This document shows positions 55,208-62,728 of a stretch of 64,000 nucleotides of DNA, one piece after another. The notes beneath the pieces are model-generated. The model ran no database searches. It was not told the DNA's origin and was given only the letters and a program-made list of their open reading frames with translations. The stretch lies in the NCBI GenBank assembly GCA_013360295.1, contig JABWCL010000006.1:62001-126000 (forward strand), written 5' to 3'. The position numbers and the translations under genes were made by a program. This DNA is from Ignavibacteriaceae bacterium (GTDB taxonomy: Bacteria; Bacteroidota; Ignavibacteria; Ignavibacteriales; Ignavibacteriaceae). Numbering within the stretch: position 1 is the stretch's first letter; each line of letters begins with the position of its first letter.

Positions 55208-56509
55208 TTATTGGATCACTTCGACCAGCAGTTTATCCTTCTTCTGTTTTTTTGTGCTGAAAGAAAAAGATGATAACACTGTTTCTTCTGCCGATTTAAT
55301 TGATTTTTTATTGTTTGTATGCAGAACGGCTATCACTTGTCCTGACGTGACATAATCACCGATTTTTGGATAAAACACTATCCCTGCCAGCGGATCCACT
55401 TTATCTTCTTTAGTCAGTCTTCCCGCGCCGAGTGAATTTGAGGCAATTCCGATAGAGAAAGTATCAATTGCTTTAATGTACCCGGATTCGCCTGCTTTTA
55501 CTTCAACTCTGTACTTAGCTTTAGGATGATTCCTCAGGTCAGTAATATAATTTGGATCTCCTCCCTGTGCCTTTACCATCGCCGCGAATTTCTCAACTGC
55601 TCTTTTACCTGTAAGGTTTTTGATCATTTCCGCGCCTTCCTCAATACTGCCTGCCTTACCGCCCAGATAAAGCATCGCGCCGGCAAGCATAAACGTAACA
55701 TAGTTCAGATCGGGAACATCAGCGCCGCTCAGGACTTCCACCGATTCTTTTACTTCCAGCAGGTTACCGATGTGTGTACCGAGAGGCTGATTCATTGATG
55801 TGATGAGTACTGCAACTTTTTTATTAAAACTAACCGCTGTATTGAACATAGAATCGGCAAGCGCTTTGGCATCCTCATACTTTTTCATAAACGCGCCGCT
55901 GCCTGTTTTAACATCGAGGACAAGCCCGTCAATTCCTTCTGCTAATTTCTTACTCATTATACTGGCGGTAATCAGTGGAATGGATTCGACAGTGGAGGTG
56001 ACATCGCGAAGCGCGTAGATCACTTTATCCGCGGGAGCAATATCGGGCGTCTGACCTATCATTACACAGCCGTGTTTTTTAATTACGGATTTATACTGAG
56101 TGAGGTTGAGGTTTACGTTAAAACCGGGGATTGATTCAAGTTTATCAAGGGTGCCGCCTGTGTGTCCGAGCGCCCTGCCTGAGATCATCGGAACATTGAG
56201 TCCCGCAAGCGCGACAAGAGGAGCGAGTATAAGAGAAGTCTTATCTCCAACTCCGCCGGTTGAATGTTTATCAACTTTAAAACCGGGTATTGAAGAGAGG
56301 TCAATCACTTTACCGCTGTATAACATTGTGTTAGTAAGAGCGGAAGTTTCCCCCTTAGTCATTCCTTTCAGGTACACAGCCATAAGGAAAGCGGCGAACT
56401 GGTAATCGGGGATTTTACCGGAGGTGAAATTGTTGACAATAAATTTAATTTCTTCAGGAGCCAGCGCAACGCCGTCCCTCTTTTTACGTATTATCTCTAT
56501 CGCGGTCAT
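55208..56509 (-). CDS. Pyrimidine-nucleoside (thymidine) phosphorylase
   Basis: The 433-residue protein carries the family signature GRALGHTGGTLDKLESIPGF, the phosphate loop KHSTGGVGDKTSL, and the C-terminal PYNP domain (AGESGYIKAID, AGIVFYPKIGDYVTSGQVIAVL). It phosphorolyses thymidine/uridine to base and (deoxy)ribose-1-phosphate. Whether it is DeoA or the broader Pdp type is not resolved. It starts just beside a 7-bp-periodic repeat array. The secreted 5'-nucleotidase elsewhere in the window could supply its nucleoside substrates. Confidence 0.93.
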   Translation of the reverse strand: MTAIEIIRKKRDGVALAPEEIKFIVNNFTSGKIPDYQFAAFLMAVYLKGMTKGETSALTNTMLYSGKVIDLSSIPGFKVDKHSTGGVGDKTSLILAPLVALAGLNVPMISGRALGHTGGTLDKLESIPGFNVNLNLTQYKSVIKKHGCVMIGQTPDIAPADKVIYALRDVTSTVESIPLITASIMSKKLAEGIDGLVLDVKTGSGAFMKKYEDAKALADSMFNTAVSFNKKVAVLITSMNQPLGTHIGNLLEVKESVEVLSGADVPDLNYVTFMLAGAMLYLGGKAGSIEEGAEMIKNLTGKRAVEKFAAMVKAQGGDPNYITDLRNHPKAKYRVEVKAGESGYIKAIDTFSIGIASNSLGAGRLTKEDKVDPLAGIVFYPKIGDYVTSGQVIAVLHTNNKKSIKSAEETVLSSFSFSTKKQKKDKLLVEVIQ

Positions 56510-56514
56510 CTTTG

Positions 56515-56762
56515 TAATTAAAAATTAAGAATTAAGAATTAAAAATTTAAAATAAATTCCGGTTTCCTTGCTTTCCCCTGTTAAAAAAGTGGAAAGTTTA
56601 CGCAGTTGAAAATTGTGTTTAGCGGGTTTGTTTTAATATTCGTATGGTTTCAACCACAATTTTCTTAAAGCCTCACTAACTCCTTCAGAAGTGAAGAATT
56701 ACCAGAAACAAAATCTTCATATAATAAATATAAGAATTCTTAATTTTTAATTTTTAATTCTT
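56515..56762. repeat. Non-coding element bounded by inverted 7-bp-periodic arrays
   Basis: The left arm (56515-56556) reads in sevens TAATTAA, AAATTAA, GAATTAA, GAATTAA, AAATTTA, AAATAAA. The right arm (56732-56762), read on the minus strand, is GAATTAA, AAATTAA, AAATTAA, GAATTCT. The best 26-bp overlap of the arms matches at 24 positions. Between them lies about 175 bp containing a perfect inner stem, GAAAATTGTG (56608-56617) with CACAATTTTC (56655-56664). The right arm supplies the stop codon of the SDR gene at 56754. No open frame is present. Confidence 0.7.
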
Positions 56763-57566
56763 CATTCCCGCCAGTTTCAAGCTCACCCGCCAGAACTGTT
56801 TTCTCGTCTCCGCGTCGTTCGCGATTGGGGAGTATTTTGCTTCTCTGCATTTGATGAAGTATTTACCGGTAGTGCCGCGGACATCGTCGGAGGTAGCGAG
56901 GTAAACGGGTGTTTCTGCTCCGTCTTCGACGGGCGCGCCCTGACTACCAAAGCCGGCGGCAAGCAGATTGGTGGTGATCACTCCCGGATGCAGTACGTTT
57001 ACTGTTACACCCTGGTCCCTTAATTTTTCAGCCATTTCAATCGTAAAAAGAATATTCGCCAGTTTTGAAAGCGCGTATGCCTGGTAACCGTCAAACTTTT
57101 TCTCCCCCTGCAGGTTTTCGAAGTGGAGCCTGCCGTTCTGATGCGCGATGGAGCTGACATTGATAACCCGGGAAGGGGCTGAAGTGATCAGTACCGGTGC
57201 GAGAAGGTTAGTCAGGATAAAGTATGACATATGATTAACAGCGAAAGTCATCTCCAACCCGTCCTCCGTTAGCACACGCTGTTTCATAAATACGCCGGCG
57301 TTGTTAATCAGCACATCCAGGCGGTCATACTTATTTAGGAAAGCGGCGGCAAGCGCTTCGGCACCTTTTTTAGTTGATATGTCTGAGACCAGAAAATCAA
57401 CTTTAGTATTTCCGGTTCTCGCGAATATCTCATCGCGTGTATGAACGCACTTCTCTTTGTTTCTTCCGTGGATGACTACAGCAGCTCCGGTCCCAGCCAG
57501 CTTTATCGCGGTCTGTTTACCAATTCCGTCAGTGGATCCGGTTATGAGAATTACTTTATCAGCCAT
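56754..57566 (-). CDS. Short-chain dehydrogenase (retinol-dehydrogenase-like)
   Basis: This 270-residue SDR has TGSTDGIGKQTA as cofactor loop, NNAG, INVSSIAHQNG (catalytic Ser region) and YALSKLAN (catalytic Tyr/Lys), with NVLHPGVI later, matching the group annotated as retinol dehydrogenase-like. It is cytoplasmic; the substrate is unknown. It starts 1 bp after the upstream hypothetical gene ends, so the two form an operon. Its TAA stop is part of a GAATTAA heptamer array. Confidence 0.9.
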   Translation of the reverse strand: MADKVILITGSTDGIGKQTAIKLAGTGAAVVIHGRNKEKCVHTRDEIFARTGNTKVDFLVSDISTKKGAEALAAAFLNKYDRLDVLINNAGVFMKQRVLTEDGLEMTFAVNHMSYFILTNLLAPVLITSAPSRVINVSSIAHQNGRLHFENLQGEKKFDGYQAYALSKLANILFTIEMAEKLRDQGVTVNVLHPGVITTNLLAAGFGSQGAPVEDGAETPVYLATSDDVRGTTGKYFIKCREAKYSPIANDAETRKQFWRVSLKLAGMKN

Positions 57567-57567
57567 A

Positions 57568-57957
57568 TTAAACTTTAATGTATCCTTCCTTTTTCATTTT
57601 TTCAAATCCCTGCTTTGTGAGATTTTTTAACTCGGCAAAAAGTGCTTTATCCTGCCTGTCAAAATTAAAACACGACTTCCCCTGCATTCTCTTTTTCAGT
57701 TCAGTGGATATTCCCTTCAGCAGATCAGGGAACATATATACCGGGAAAAGGTAGTAACTCACATAAATTTTTTTAATTTCTATTCCGCCGAAGAATATCT
57801 CCCTTTTATACTTTTCACTGTAATCGGCGTTTACTGTATAACCGGACTTTTCATCTTTGGTTACTTTAAGTTTCTTCGTAAATGGCGATATTACTTTTTT
57901 TAATTCTTCGAAAACAGACTTTAAATCTTCATTGCTCTCTTTTACAGAACGGGGCAT
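57568..57957 (-). CDS. Hypothetical protein
   Basis: The product is 129 residues from 57957 (MPRSVKESNEDLKSVF). An upstream in-frame ATG adds 12 basic residues and is less likely. It is lysine-rich and soluble, with an N-terminal helix, central beta strands (GYTVNADYSEKYKREIFFGGIEIKKIYVSYYLFPVY) and C-terminal helices. This resembles small DUF1801-like proteins, but I cannot name it confidently. It is the first gene of a pair with the downstream SDR. Confidence 0.65.
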   Translation of the reverse strand: MPRSVKESNEDLKSVFEELKKVISPFTKKLKVTKDEKSGYTVNADYSEKYKREIFFGGIEIKKIYVSYYLFPVYMFPDLLKGISTELKKRMQGKSCFNFDRQDKALFAELKNLTKQGFEKMKKEGYIKV

Positions 57958-58013
57958 AAATGATTTTTTCCTTGAATGATAAACAAAACACACCGAATAT
58001 AATGAAGCAGAAG

Positions 58014-58051
58014 CTATAAAAAAATAAAGCCGGGATGAGAGGTCCCGGCTT
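58014..58051 (-). terminator. Rho-independent terminator of nhaA
   Basis: On the minus strand a perfect 9-bp stem (58043-58051 with 58027-58035) encloses a 7-base loop and is followed by TTATTTTTTTAT. It lies 19 bp after the nhaA stop codon. Confidence 0.9.
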
Positions 58052-58069
58052 ATTGTGAACGGTTATTGA

Positions 58070-59275
58070 TTACTTTTCCGCAGAGGGCTGCGGCGATCTT
58101 TTACTTAATATAAGGCTAAGTATATAGTAACCGATTACGCCGCTGATAAGTGAACCCGTAAGAATACCAAGTTTGGCGTAGGTAAGCATTTCGGCTGAAT
58201 CGGTGTAGGCAAGTCCTCCAATAAACAACGACATAGTAAACCCGATGCCGCCGATAATTCCCGCTCCGAAAATCATGTTCATCGTAACATTCTCAGGCAT
58301 TTCCGCAATTTTTGTTTTAACCGCGAGCCAGGTGAATGACCAGATACCTAACATTTTTCCAAAGAAAAGGCCGAGGATAATTCCGAGTGATATTTCATTC
58401 CTGAATACATCCGCGAGGCTTCCTTCAATCGTTACGCCCGAATTAGCAAACGCGAATACCGGCATTATGAAAAATGCTACCCAGGGGTGTAACTGATGTT
58501 CGAGATTCTTCAGCATTCCTCCGGACATAGGTATTACAGTCGCCAGAAGCACTCCCGCGATTGTGGCGTGTACTCCTGATTTAAGTATCGCGATCCAGAG
58601 AAAGATCCCGAAAAAGATATAAAAGAATAGGTTCTTTATTCCTTTACGGCTGCCGGCTGCTAGAATAAAGTATAAACCTCCCGCGAAGAGAAGACTCGTT
58701 GTGGATAGTTCGCTGGTGTAGAAGAACGCAATCACGAGCACCGCGCCAAGATCGTCTATTATCGCGAAAGCTGTCAGGAATACCTTCAGCGCCAGCGGCA
58801 CCCGTTTACCAAGAAGGCTCAGGATGCCAAGGGCAAAAGCGATATCAGTCGCCATCGGGATTCCCCATCCGGCTATACTTACCTTGTTATAATTAAAAAA
58901 GGTGAATATAAGCGCCGGTATAACCATGCCGCCAACCGCTGCCACACCGGGGAGTGCGGCTTTTTTGAATGATGATAGTTCCCCCGCCAGAAGTTCGCGC
59001 TTTATTTCAAGCCCGACGACAAAAAAGAAGATCGCCATCAAACCGTCATTTATCCAGAGAAGCAATGGTTTGTTTATGTTAAAAAACTCAAAACCTATCA
59101 TAAACCGGGTATTAAAAAGCCCATAGTAGTATTGGGTAACCGGCGAATTGGCGGCTATCATTGCCAGTACCGCGCAGGAGAGGAGTATAATCCCACCCGC
59201 TGATTCGATCTTTACGAATTGGAGGAAGGGATTAACAATAATGGATTTAAGATTTTTCCTTGGTTTATTTTGCAT
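58070..59275 (-). CDS. nhaA: Na+/H+ antiporter NhaA
   Basis: The 401-residue protein shows the NhaA pattern: FFFVVGLEIKRELLAGELSS, MATDIAFALGILSLLGKRVP, and TAFAIIDDLGAVLVIAFFY with the paired aspartates of the ion site. It has about 12 membrane segments. It exchanges Na+ or Li+ for protons in pH and salt homeostasis. It is a single gene with its own consensus promoter and a perfect palindrome in the leader, suggesting regulation by an unlinked dimeric protein. Confidence 0.95.
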   Translation of the reverse strand: MQNKPRKNLKSIIVNPFLQFVKIESAGGIILLSCAVLAMIAANSPVTQYYYGLFNTRFMIGFEFFNINKPLLLWINDGLMAIFFFVVGLEIKRELLAGELSSFKKAALPGVAAVGGMVIPALIFTFFNYNKVSIAGWGIPMATDIAFALGILSLLGKRVPLALKVFLTAFAIIDDLGAVLVIAFFYTSELSTTSLLFAGGLYFILAAGSRKGIKNLFFYIFFGIFLWIAILKSGVHATIAGVLLATVIPMSGGMLKNLEHQLHPWVAFFIMPVFAFANSGVTIEGSLADVFRNEISLGIILGLFFGKMLGIWSFTWLAVKTKIAEMPENVTMNMIFGAGIIGGIGFTMSLFIGGLAYTDSAEMLTYAKLGILTGSLISGVIGYYILSLILSKRSPQPSAEK

Positions 59276-59313
59276 CGTATTCCTTTACTATTTATTTATT
59301 AAACACAGAGGGA

Positions 59314-59371
59314 ATTGAAACAGTTTCAATGCCGGAAACTGTCAATATAGCATTTTTTGGGCTTTTGTCAA
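59314..59371 (-). promoter_or_regulatory. nhaA promoter with downstream palindrome
   Basis: On the minus strand TTGACA (59366-59371) and TATATT (59344-59349) are 16 bp apart. The predicted start is near 59338. A perfect 17-bp palindrome, ATTGAAACAGTTTCAAT (59314-59330), lies about 8-24 bases into the transcript. It may be an operator acting as a roadblock. Confidence 0.75.
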
Positions 59372-59501
59372 GAAAAATCGGCTGGGGTAATGGAACAAAC
59401 CGGAATTTTTTGAGGGGGAGAGAAGGCTTCCATTCTTCCCGGGATAATCCGGCACCTCATTAATGCTTATATTGCAATCCTGCAAATAGCAATATTGGAA
59501 T

Positions 59502-60581
59502 ATGAATTCATTATCAGAAGAAACAAAGAAATCAAACAAGAAAACCCTGCTGAAAGGGATGCTGCGGGGTGAACTCCGTGATTTTTTCCTTTCGATCGGT
59601 GAAAAGGAGTACCGCGCGGACCAGGCTTTCAACTGGATGTATAATTACCGTGTTGAAAACTTCAGCGAGATGTTGAATATGTCCAAAGAACTGAGAGTAA
59701 AACTGAACGATATCGCCCTCCTGAACACCCTTTCACTCCGGGAGAAACAGGTCTCAGCTATTGACGGAGCAGTAAAACTTTTACTTGAGACCTCCGGCGG
59801 GAATTTGATTGAATCAGTGATACTGCCTGAGAAAACAAGGGTGACTCTCTGCGTTTCCACCCAGGTTGGGTGTCCCCTCGACTGCAAATTCTGCGCGACG
59901 GGGCTGATGGGTTATAAGAGAAACCTTTCAAGCGGGGAAATATTTGATCAGTACGCGCTCGCGCAGCGGTTGTATGACCGACCGATTACCAATATTGTAT
60001 TTATGGGAATGGGTGAGCCGCTCCTTAATTTCGAGCAGACAGTAAAAACTCTGATGATTTTTGCTGATGAACTTAATAAGGGGATAAGCCACAAGAAGAT
60101 CACAGTTTCTACCGCGGGAATACCGCATAAAATAATTGATCTGGCGGATACGGGGCTTAAGTCAAAACTCGCTTTCTCGCTTCATTCCTGTTTTGAAGAA
60201 GAAAGGGAAGTGATAATGCCGATCAATAAAAAATATTCGCTGAAAGAAAACCTGGAAGCAATTGAATACTTCGCCAGGAAGACCGATACGTGGATTACTT
60301 TTGAATATGTGATGCTGAGGGGGATAAATGACAGAGAGAAAGATATTAAGGCTCTTACCAAACTATGCAGGCGCATCAAATCCAAAGTTAACATTATTCC
60401 TTTCAATTCACTCGAGCATATGAATCCCGAAGGAATATCCGCGGAACTTATTCCCACATCGAGAGAAAAGATAGAAAAGTTTGCTGATAAACTAAGAGAG
60501 AACAATATCTCCGTTTTTCTCCGTAACACGCAAGGAGAGGATATTGACGCGGCGTGCGGACAACTTGCCATAAAATACTAA
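59502..60581 (+). CDS. rlmN: RlmN, dual-specificity 23S rRNA/tRNA C2-adenosine methyltransferase
   Basis: This 359-residue radical-SAM enzyme has the CxxxCxxC cluster site at Cys124, Cys128 and Cys131 (VGCPLDCKFCATGLMGYKRN). It also has the C-terminal resolving cysteine in DIDAACGQLA and the methyl-carrying cysteine region characteristic of RlmN. It methylates A2503 of 23S rRNA and A37 of some tRNAs. It is followed after 4 bp by a second RNA methyltransferase gene, so the pair forms an RNA-modification operon. Confidence 0.95.
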   Translation: MNSLSEETKKSNKKTLLKGMLRGELRDFFLSIGEKEYRADQAFNWMYNYRVENFSEMLNMSKELRVKLNDIALLNTLSLREKQVSAIDGAVKLLLETSGGNLIESVILPEKTRVTLCVSTQVGCPLDCKFCATGLMGYKRNLSSGEIFDQYALAQRLYDRPITNIVFMGMGEPLLNFEQTVKTLMIFADELNKGISHKKITVSTAGIPHKIIDLADTGLKSKLAFSLHSCFEEEREVIMPINKKYSLKENLEAIEYFARKTDTWITFEYVMLRGINDREKDIKALTKLCRRIKSKVNIIPFNSLEHMNPEGISAELIPTSREKIEKFADKLRENNISVFLRNTQGEDIDAACGQLAIKY

Positions 60582-60585
60582 GCTT

Positions 60586-61125
60586 ATGAAAAAACTTTCA
60601 CACGCGGAGATATCGGTTAACCGCGCGAAACCCGATTCACTCCACACCGTTAAACGAGCACCCATTTACGCCCTGATCGACAGTGTAAGAAGCTCTTATA
60701 ATGTCGGATCAATTTTCCGCACATCAGACGGAGCTATGATAGAAAAACTTTTTTTATGCGGCTACACACCTCATCCCCCCAATAAAGAAATACTTAAGAC
60801 CGCGCTTGGCGCCACTGAAAGCGTTCCCTGGGAATACGTTAAAGACCCCGCAGAGGTTGTAAAAAAACTGAAAAGTGAAGGAGTAAAGATTGCTGCTCTT
60901 GAGCAAACCGACTCCGGCAGAAAATATTATGAAGTAGAAAATGAGGATTTCCCGATTTGCCTTGTAGTAGGAAACGAAATCACCGGCGTATCCCACGACC
61001 TGATCAGGGAATGCGACTTCGCCCTTGAAATCCCCCAGTACGGAATCAAACAATCCCTGAACGTCGCCGTCGCATACGGAATCGCTATCTTCGAACTCAG
61101 AAAAAACTTCAACAATGATCAATGA
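60586..61125 (+). CDS. SpoU/TrmH-family RNA 2'-O-methyltransferase
   Basis: The 179-residue protein has SPOUT motifs: IYALIDSVRSSYNVGSIFRTSDG (motif 1), ICLVVGNEITGVSHDLI (motif 2) and LEIPQYGIKQSLNVAVAYGIAIFE (motif 3, the knot). The exact RNA target (tRNA or rRNA position) is unknown. The TGA stop and the last codons (AAT GAT CAA) lie in the left 7-bp-periodic arm of the following element, so the last residues, NDQ, are encoded by the repeat. Confidence 0.93.
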   Translation: MKKLSHAEISVNRAKPDSLHTVKRAPIYALIDSVRSSYNVGSIFRTSDGAMIEKLFLCGYTPHPPNKEILKTALGATESVPWEYVKDPAEVVKKLKSEGVKIAALEQTDSGRKYYEVENEDFPICLVVGNEITGVSHDLIRECDFALEIPQYGIKQSLNVAVAYGIAIFELRKNFNNDQ

Positions 61126-61151
61126 CCAATGATCAATGATCAAAATTTTAA
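61113..61151 (+). repeat. Left inverted-repeat arm of four-helix-bundle element
   Basis: It reads as four 7-bp units, CAATGAT, CAATGAC, CAATGAT, CAATGAT, then CAAAATTTTAA. The right arm (61661-61699) is its inverted copy at 36 of 39 positions. TGA recurs every 7 bases, so it is present in all three frames. The second unit provides the stop codon of the upstream methyltransferase gene. Confidence 0.85.
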
Positions 61152-61280
61152 GTAATACACAAATAGAAAAACAAATATGCCGGGGGATGTAATTCTGGTG
61201 ATTTTTCTCGTGGATTATGGGGTATATAATTTTATGTTCGCATAAGGCTAACAACATTCAATAAATTTAAGGGAACTTGA

Positions 61281-61643
61281 TTGGATACCATTCTCTACCC
61301 AAAAGCTCTGAAGTTTTCTATAAGGATAGTAAAACTCCAGAGATACCTTGTCGCTGATAAAAAAGAATATTTGTTATCAAAGCAAGTCTTAAAAAGTGGC
61401 ACCTCGATTGGCGCTAATGTTGCTGAAGCTATCGGGGCTATTTCAAGAGCTGATTTCAGCCAAAAGATATCAATAGCATATAAAGAATCTCTTGAAACCA
61501 AATATTGGCTGGAGCTGCTAAAGGAAACTGATTTAATAACTCCACGTCAATTTCAAAACTTGTATGACGATTGTGATGAGTTAAGCAGAATTATGTTTAA
61601 AATTCTAAAAACCACCCGGATTGACCCCGAAAACTCACCCTAA
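61281..61643 (+). CDS. Four-helix-bundle protein (23S rRNA intervening-sequence type)
   Basis: The 120-residue, all-helical protein matches the S23/IVP four-helix-bundle family (LYPKALKFSIRIVKLQRYL, SGTSIGANVAEAIGAISRADFSQKISIAYKESLETKYWLELL). It appears to start at TTG after a GGGAA site. The family occurs in 23S rRNA intervening sequences, in many intergenic cassettes, and as the Avd protein of diversity-generating retroelements. It is flanked on both sides by inverted 39-bp arms, so it is probably the passenger of a small mobile cassette. The biochemical role is unknown. Confidence 0.88.
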   Translation: MDTILYPKALKFSIRIVKLQRYLVADKKEYLLSKQVLKSGTSIGANVAEAIGAISRADFSQKISIAYKESLETKYWLELLKETDLITPRQFQNLYDDCDELSRIMFKILKTTRIDPENSP

Positions 61644-61660
61644 AAATTCAAGGCTTATAA

Positions 61661-61699
61661 TTAAAACTTTGATCATTGGTCATTGATCATTGATCATTG
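61661..61699 (-). repeat. Right inverted-repeat arm of four-helix-bundle element
   Basis: Read on the minus strand this is CAATGAT, CAATGAT, CAATGAC, CAATGAT and CAAAGTTTTAA. It matches the left arm at 36 of 39 positions. Its first unit supplies the glutamine codon and TGA stop of the convergent zinc-ribbon gene at 61694. Confidence 0.85.
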
Positions 61700-61942
61700 C
61701 GAACTGCTTTCAGGCTTACTCTCGGTAGTTTTAGAAGTTTTGGTTTTATCGTCAGTGGATGGTTTTTTATAGTCGGTTTGATAGAAACCGGAGCCTTTGA
61801 AGATGGGGCCGGCGCCGGCGCCGATTTTACGTTTTACGGTGCCGCTGCATTCGGGGCATACTGTTATCGGCTCTTCGGTCATTGTCTGGAAAAGGTCAAA
61901 AGTATAGTTACAATCTTTGCATACATACTCATAAGTAGGCAT
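61694..61942 (-). CDS. FmdB-family zinc-ribbon protein
   Basis: This 82-residue protein starts at 61942 (MPTYEYVCKDCNYTFDLF). The four zinc-binding cysteines are in CKDC and CPEC, separated by about 20 residues, and the family motif KRKIGAGAGPIFKGSGFYQTDY follows. The C-terminal tail is polar and disordered (KTSKTTESKPESSSQ). FmdB-type proteins are putative small regulators. The last residue and stop codon are encoded within the inverted-repeat arm of the neighbouring element. Confidence 0.92.
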   Translation of the reverse strand: MPTYEYVCKDCNYTFDLFQTMTEEPITVCPECSGTVKRKIGAGAGPIFKGSGFYQTDYKKPSTDDKTKTSKTTESKPESSSQ

Positions 61943-62062
61943 ATTCATTCCTTAAATAATGTCAAAATTCATCACTTTTTAGAGGGGCAAATTTAATGAA
62001 AAATACTAAAATTTTCCATAAATTAGGGTCTATACTATTAAATCATTCTAGCAGGCAGACAG

Positions 62063-62728
62063 TTGCGAAAAATTAGTTTTATATTGCTGATAGTTATCCC
62101 CCTGATCCTCAGCGGGTGCCTTAACTATACTCAAGAGATAAGCTTTAATCTTGACGGTTCAGGGTCTATGAAAATCCATTACTGGATGAAAGTATCGGAC
62201 CCGAATAACCAGCTCGCGGTCGAACAGCTTGGTTTATTTAATAAGGATTCCATTACCTCCCAGTTTACTTCTCCTTATATGGAGATTGAGGAGATTGAAG
62301 TTTATTCCGATACTCTTGATTCAACCTCACACGTAAAGATTGAGCTGAACTTTGTGCATATTGATTCGCTCAATCTTACCAGTCCGTTCAGCGATGCCAA
62401 CTTTTCTCTTAAGGACGGCGCGGAAGGGCAGCTTATCTTTTCCCAGTTTATTGCTCCCATAGCCACGGGTTTTGGATTTAACGGTTCGGAATTTATGGTA
62501 AAGTATATTTATGAATTCCCCGGCGAGATCATAGTGCATAACGCTACAAACATTGACGGGAAGAAACTTGTCTGGGCTTATACTGTTTCGGAAATAGGTA
62601 AGGGAAAAACGATTTCAGTAACCTACCGGCCGTATAAACTGAAGGAAACCCCCTGGTGGATCTACGCGCTCTCAATGACAGTGCTTGTCATAGTAATAAT
62701 TTTCCTTTTCCGTAAGCGCAGGAAATAG
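62063..62728 (+). CDS. Lipoprotein with C-terminal membrane anchor
   Basis: The 221-residue protein starts at TTG and has a lipobox LSGC (Cys19). A beta-rich extracytoplasmic domain follows, beginning YTQEISFNLDGSGSMKIHYWM. A final transmembrane helix (WIYALSMTVLVIVIIFLF) with a basic RKRRK tail ends it. The start of the domain resembles the LppM-like fold. It is followed after 32 bp by a second, shorter lipoprotein with a similar opening, so the pair may be paralogous partners. Confidence 0.75.
   Translation: MRKISFILLIVIPLILSGCLNYTQEISFNLDGSGSMKIHYWMKVSDPNNQLAVEQLGLFNKDSITSQFTSPYMEIEEIEVYSDTLDSTSHVKIELNFVHIDSLNLTSPFSDANFSLKDGAEGQLIFSQFIAPIATGFGFNGSEFMVKYIYEFPGEIIVHNATNIDGKKLVWAYTVSEIGKGKTISVTYRPYKLKETPWWIYALSMTVLVIVIIFLFRKRRK

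Follow-up and report, generated by a model that had tools for sequence, protein, structure and literature searches.

Many bacterial genomes are rich in tandem arrays of 7-bp units, for which there is, to our knowledge, no accepted origin; likewise we know of no function for the four-helix-bundle (4HB) proteins of the type encoded by intervening sequences (IVS). We report here that these two loose ends may be one. In a 64,000-nt stretch of the genome of an Ignavibacteriaceae bacterium (contig JABWCL010000006.1, positions 62,001 to 126,000; in the following the window) a cassette between the genes spoU and fmdB consists of one 4HB gene of the family PF05635 flanked by inverted heptamer arrays. 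This cassette is probably one copy of a widespread class of small, transposase-less, IVS-like insertion elements, each with a single PF05635 gene in inverted arrays of 7-9-bp units. As a serious though tentative possibility, this phylum-spanning class of transposase-less elements could also be the source of the heptamer repeats and the parent form of the 23S rRNA IVS.

Among the described heptamers, the TAACTGA repeats occur in Beggiatoaceae, Cyanobacteria and Bacteroidetes; no transfer mechanism was found for them, and as a speculation the mobile element was suggested to be a protein that binds the repeats (MacGregor 2015, PMC4679880). In a term search of that text neither four-helix nor IVS proteins came up. 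The GGGAATC/GGGGATT heptamers of Xanthomonas and Nostoc lie near stop codons and are read as G-quadruplex motifs in the passages considered of PMC4692102. On the side of the protein, the IVS of Coxiella burnetii carries an S23p open reading frame (ORF) inside a 28-bp terminal stem which is cut by RNase III, and its origin is unclear (PMC4990558). The resemblance of PF05635 to Avd, a protein of diversity-generating retroelements, has already been noted (PMC10053308). In the open-access literature we found no paper joining the PF05635 family to heptamer repeats; subscription journals may hold one.

The cassette and its surroundings comprise the following features.

61113..61699, no strand assigned: whole cassette, inverted arm, 4HB gene and inverted arm; from the sequence, without counterpart at the orthologous site (locus L215) of the congener G001
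61113..61154, plus strand: left arm, four CAATGAY units followed by CAAAATTTTAAGTA; holds the last codons and the stop of spoU
61658..61699, minus strand: right arm, inverted CAATGAY units; holds the last codon and the stop of fmdB
61281..61643, plus strand: 4HB gene, PF05635/TIGR02436, TTG start, 120 amino acids; from profile matches and an AlphaFold2 model
60586..61125, plus strand: SpoU-family methyltransferase gene, C-terminus recast by the left arm
61694..61948, minus strand: FmdB-type zinc-ribbon gene, last Gln codon and stop within the right arm
61178..61200, plus strand: terminator-like hairpin in the interval from the left arm to the 4HB gene, by consensus match only

The two arms are 90% complementary over 42 nt and are spaced 503 nt apart. 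The left arm reads CAATGAT CAATGAC CAATGAT CAATGAT CAAAATTTTAAGTA and the right arm, reverse-complemented, CAATGAT CAATGAT CAATGAC CAATGAT CAAAGTTTTAATTA; the sequence in common runs beyond the four units (CAAARTTTTAA). Being tandem 7-bp units that are dispersed over intergenic DNA, they belong with the heptamer repeats of the TAACTGA/STRR class. The predicted RNA fold has a long arm-arm stem around the 4HB ORF (z -7.6). The original prediction, made from the letters of the window, had described inverted CAATGAY arms around a TTG-started 4HB gene and had proposed that they supply the stops of both convergent neighbours. Both statements hold: SpoU ends in ...NNDQ* and FmdB in ...SSSQ*, and each stop codon is read from an arm.

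The encoded protein matches PF05635 (23S rRNA IVS protein) with an E-value of 4.8e-27 and TIGR02436 with 7e-29. The AlphaFold2 model is a four-helix bundle of high confidence (pLDDT 93.6), whose closest PDB structures are 2RLD and 2GSC (five chains each), followed by Avd of diversity-generating retroelements both free and in the ribonucleoprotein (4DWL, 8UB7) at a TM-score of ~0.7 and weak Foldseek E-values (0.08-0.15). The protein is probably pentameric. Gln35, Ser42, Asn46, Glu49 and Glu72 are invariant in an alignment of 25 sequences. No gene other than PF05635 was found in the cassette, the ORF list and the profile search giving no transposase, and a PHROGs search gave no match. An Rfam scan of window positions 56400-62200 was likewise without a match, and the cassette sits in the spoU-fmdB interval, not in a 23S rRNA gene. 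No reverse transcriptase was noticed among the ORFs at 58-64 kb, not every one of which was scanned, and no template/variable repeats were noticed in the element.

A first survey covered 80 close relatives with 73 testable loci, in which ungapped inverted matches with a score of at least 12 were counted. Such matches were present in 74% of the 73 loci, compared with 1.6% of the 365 windows drawn at random from these loci; nearly all loci gave 7 as the best tandem lag. Thirty loci from more distant PF05635 subfamilies have arms with a period of 7, 8 or 9, and by gapped alignment the inverted match exceeded the direct one in 102 of 108 loci and in every class of neighbour orientation. Thirty-odd of the 80 close relatives represent one orthologous site, ruvC-hemW; because of this overrepresentation each synteny group was reduced to a single locus, and loci from plasmids and viral contigs were included as well. 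Among the resulting 71 largely independent loci 52 have strong inverted flanks (score at least 28) compared with none of 284 control windows (Fisher p ~1e-46). The inverted match beats the direct one in 65 of these loci (35% in the controls), and the best tandem period is 7 in 52 loci, 8 in four and 9 in one, with none clear in 14. Arms are present at all 8 plasmid loci and all 13 viral-contig loci. The family sample spans at least nine bacterial phyla, with most copies in inverted arrays: Cyanobacteria, Spirochaetota, Chloroflexota and Bacillota are represented by the plasmid loci, and the contig loci bring in, according to the record labels, Balneolales, Calditrichia, Acidobacteria, Planctomycetota, Deltaproteobacteria and others. 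Of 20 facing stop codons in independent loci 14 are located in the arm or within 8 bp of it. Five plasmid cassettes (L246, L247, L248, L249, L251) are found inside defence operons, the host operons being cas1/cas2, drmD/MmeI, helicase/N-6 methylase, DUF1156/Swt1-HEPN and hsdS/hsdR.

The unit differs from element to element, and it does so together with the protein. The three other strong PF05635 genes of the window genome and one of G001 each lie inside inverted 7-bp arrays, with the units GTGGCGA, GTTAAAA, ATTGATA and GTGGAGA, all different from CAATGAY. In a set of 48 loci, elements with more similar proteins also have arms of more similar composition (Mantel r 0.47, 0 of 2000 permutations), and left and right arms match with a mean score of 43 within an element and 12 across elements. 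In the window genome the copies L001 and L004 (contigs C27 and C33) contain an in-frame stop and may therefore be decaying.

Sites with and without the cassette can be compared directly. In G001 (89% identical SpoU) the spoU and fmdB genes converge about 50 bp apart with stops of their own, with no arrays and no 4HB gene, and relative to this site the last nine codons of the window SpoU are replaced by arm sequence (LRKNFNNDQ* against LRKIFDLSKGSADQ* in G001). In five genera of Flavobacteriaceae the stop of ruvC meets the start of hemW with zero gap, and in others a cassette lies between the two genes; at the filled sites RuvC often ends in ..KQ*, from CAATAA/CAATGA, and one such locus (L212) has kept both arms with only a remnant of the 4HB gene. 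On the Nostoc plasmid L386 cas1 and cas2 abut, whereas L246 and L385 carry an antisense cassette between them and have the last ~19 Cas1 codons replaced. Three Nostoc plasmids (L380-L382) have an intact cytosine methyltransferase gene, which on L250 and L383 is split by a cassette with a loss of ~110 codons; L384 has the same gene layout as these two. The empty methyltransferase gene has a native CAATTCG at the insertion point, which is the arm unit of that element. Since the filled and empty sites compared are diverged, the direction of change is a matter of inference; the intact genes at the spoU-fmdB, cas1-cas2 and methyltransferase sites favour gain. The original prediction had called for a look at the flanks of 4HB genes elsewhere and for empty sites, and the cassette nature which it proposed is supported on both counts, by inverted 7-bp-periodic arms at most copies and by empty sites that include the spoU-fmdB site itself. 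Its view that the insert landed without removing recognisable domains is not supported as it stands, in the light of the replaced SpoU codons and the Nostoc methyltransferase.

The heptamers are also dispersed without the gene. The 14-mer array CAATGAYCAATGAY has 49 matches in the 4.46-Mb genome and the reversed control pattern has none, so that the CAATGAY array is not due to chance. About 25 further places in the genome carry a CAATGAY array without a 4HB gene (solo arrays). Most of the interpretable ones lie at the 3' end of a gene in the sense of the gene, and several give their host gene a final Gln-stop. Several repeat the order of the left arm, CAATGAT-CAATGAC-CAATGAT-CAATGAT, and because of this shared order they look like copies and not like independent slippage products. 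Within the phylum CARTNAN arrays occur in 95 of 395 genomes; PF05635 is found in 89 of the 95 genomes with arrays and in 209 of the 300 without (p 5e-7, uncorrected for kinship).

Some further observations concern the arrays as such. A CAATGAY array (L049, ~2276-2289) lies in frame inside the coding sequence of a type IX secretion C-terminal domain (PNPFNPST), and the GTGGCGA arrays beside L001 do likewise. Downstream of many solo arrays (L040-L058) there are mosaics of GGGAACA heptamers, CAGTRN hexamers and the palindrome GCGGGGAATATCATTCTCCGC. The contig ends of C12, C29, C31, C42, C43, C68, C70 and C82 of the assembly G000 are often no more than ~1.5 kb away from arrays, several within 100 bp, and the repeats therefore probably break the assembly. 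The window itself has another pair of inverted 7-bp arrays (ATTAAGA/ATTAAAA; 56511-56556 and 56731-56769, ~175 bp apart). Its neighbours are a thymidine phosphorylase gene on one side and on the other an SDR gene that has its stop within the array; as there is no clear 4HB remnant between them, this is possibly an emptied cassette.

The arms, how general they are, their tie to the protein and the presence or absence of the cassette at matched sites are shown by the data. Insertion as a unit has good support, and we infer that the element moves as a unit. Such elements would behave like the 23S rRNA IVS outside of rRNA. Most insertions would be at the ends of genes or at operon junctions, and a little of the target would often be lost. 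The arms commonly supply a new stop codon and therefore the upstream gene survives. These stops appear to be a by-product of tolerance, because stops in all three frames, which had been suggested as a property of the arms, are not general among the elements: other copies have GTGGAGA, CAATTCG or CCCCAAT arms. At the RNA level the arms are predicted to fold into a long stem enclosing the gene. The Avd-like, probably pentameric protein would recognise the repeat of its own element, as DNA or RNA, and promote copying by host enzymes, which we propose because no transposase or reverse transcriptase gene was noticed in the element. Solo arrays would be one-sided or decayed derivatives of such elements, and the published TAACTGA and GGGGATT heptamers may be their ends. 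This would make the cassette a candidate for a bacterial element able to spread with no obvious transposase, and one that tolerates insertion into operon junctions by means of its own stop codons. The link between gene and repeat makes both testable, as the sequence that each protein is predicted to bind can be read directly beside its own gene.

Several results weigh against this view. About 12 of the 71 PF05635 copies have no clear arm pair, and a fifth, weak PF05635 homologue of the window genome (L005) has no arms. No target-site duplication was found in the filled/empty comparisons, all of which are diverged and several of which include deletions. At ruvC-hemW the inheritance is deep and vertical, hence current mobility is not demonstrated there; among the orthologues of this site strict coevolution of the arm pair was sought and not found, pairing within a locus being no better than across loci (p 0.58). 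As one unit class is present throughout, it is the class and not the exact pairing that is conserved. Arrays are far commoner than the gene: of 107 viral loci with arrays a single one contains a 4HB gene, so that the gene predicts arrays but arrays do not predict the gene. Finally, at all four gene ends with solo arrays that were compared, G001 carries arrays or array-like units in the same place, mostly with other units; the solo arrays are therefore old and turning over in sequence, and they may have a role of their own.

Of the other explanations the likeliest, though we consider it improbable, is a non-mobile self-regulating module. Here the 4HB protein would bind RNA of its own repeat and would regulate or protect the operon in which it lies, much as a type III toxin-antitoxin system with tandem repeats does. 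The ruvC-hemW 4HB gene is under purifying selection (divergence at the three codon positions 0.26/0.14/0.55) and has long been retained vertically, the 4HB genes are codirectional with their neighbours in most operons, copies lie in plasmid defence operons and the fold is Avd-like, all of which would suit such a module. Filled and empty sites in several unrelated gene pairs, one inside the methyltransferase gene, and the dispersed arrays of the same unit are however better accommodated by an insertion element. Rather improbable is also that a bare 4HB gene was inserted and the arms were made in place by slippage or reiterative copying from a single target heptamer. The CAATTCG at the empty methyltransferase site and the turnover of units at fixed sites between congeners agree with this, but unit identity tracks protein identity across phyla and the single variant order found in several solo arrays implies that arms are copied.

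Least probable by a little, and largely refuted, is that the arms are ordinary 3'-end repeats of the host, serving convergent genes as terminators or in mRNA stability with the 4HB gene merely lying between them: solo CAATGAY arrays do lie mostly at gene 3' ends, one convergent pair (L057) has arrays without a 4HB gene, arrays are retained at these gene ends in the congener as well and the GGGAATC/GGGGATT heptamers are also near stop codons (passages considered of PMC4692102), yet the arms of 4HB genes are inverted for codirectional, convergent and divergent neighbours alike, each pair shares a unit that differs between elements, and the congener has spoU and fmdB with no arrays. The original prediction had named two findings that would speak against it, the same arms in relatives lacking the gene and shared terminators. 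Arrays of the same unit without the gene are indeed common and count in part against it; the shared-terminator alternative fails, since the arms are inverted under every neighbour orientation. We also reject that the gene went into an array already present, as this would leave direct arms and inverted ones are seen.

Returning to the insertion element, which remains our preferred reading, the cassette is set apart from insertion sequences and transposons by having no transposase gene. It resembles REPIN/RAYT and the eukaryotic foldback elements in that one gene lies in inverted repeats that are also dispersed alone and in that the arms consist of short tandem repeats; it differs from them by its four-helix-bundle protein in place of a Y1 transposase. 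With Avd of diversity-generating retroelements the modelled window protein shares its fold, whereas the reverse transcriptase and the template/variable repeats of those elements were not noticed in this one. The TAACTGA repeat has as its complement TCAGTTA, a CARTNAN-class unit as in the arms of window-like elements, although PMC4679880 describes no inverted cassette. In the same way AATCCCC, the complement of GGGGATT, is the arm unit of the Planktothrix plasmid element L247, and both are near stop codons, while the passages considered of PMC4692102 gave no linked gene. From the 23S rRNA IVS the window element differs by its position between protein genes and not in a 23S rRNA helix, by arms that are tandem 7-9-bp arrays and by an ORF which is under purifying selection at one well-sampled site. 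Common to both, besides an unexplained origin and mobility, is a PF05635-type (S23p) ORF whose complementary flanking termini pair to form a stem enclosing it, a stem that is predicted in the present case.
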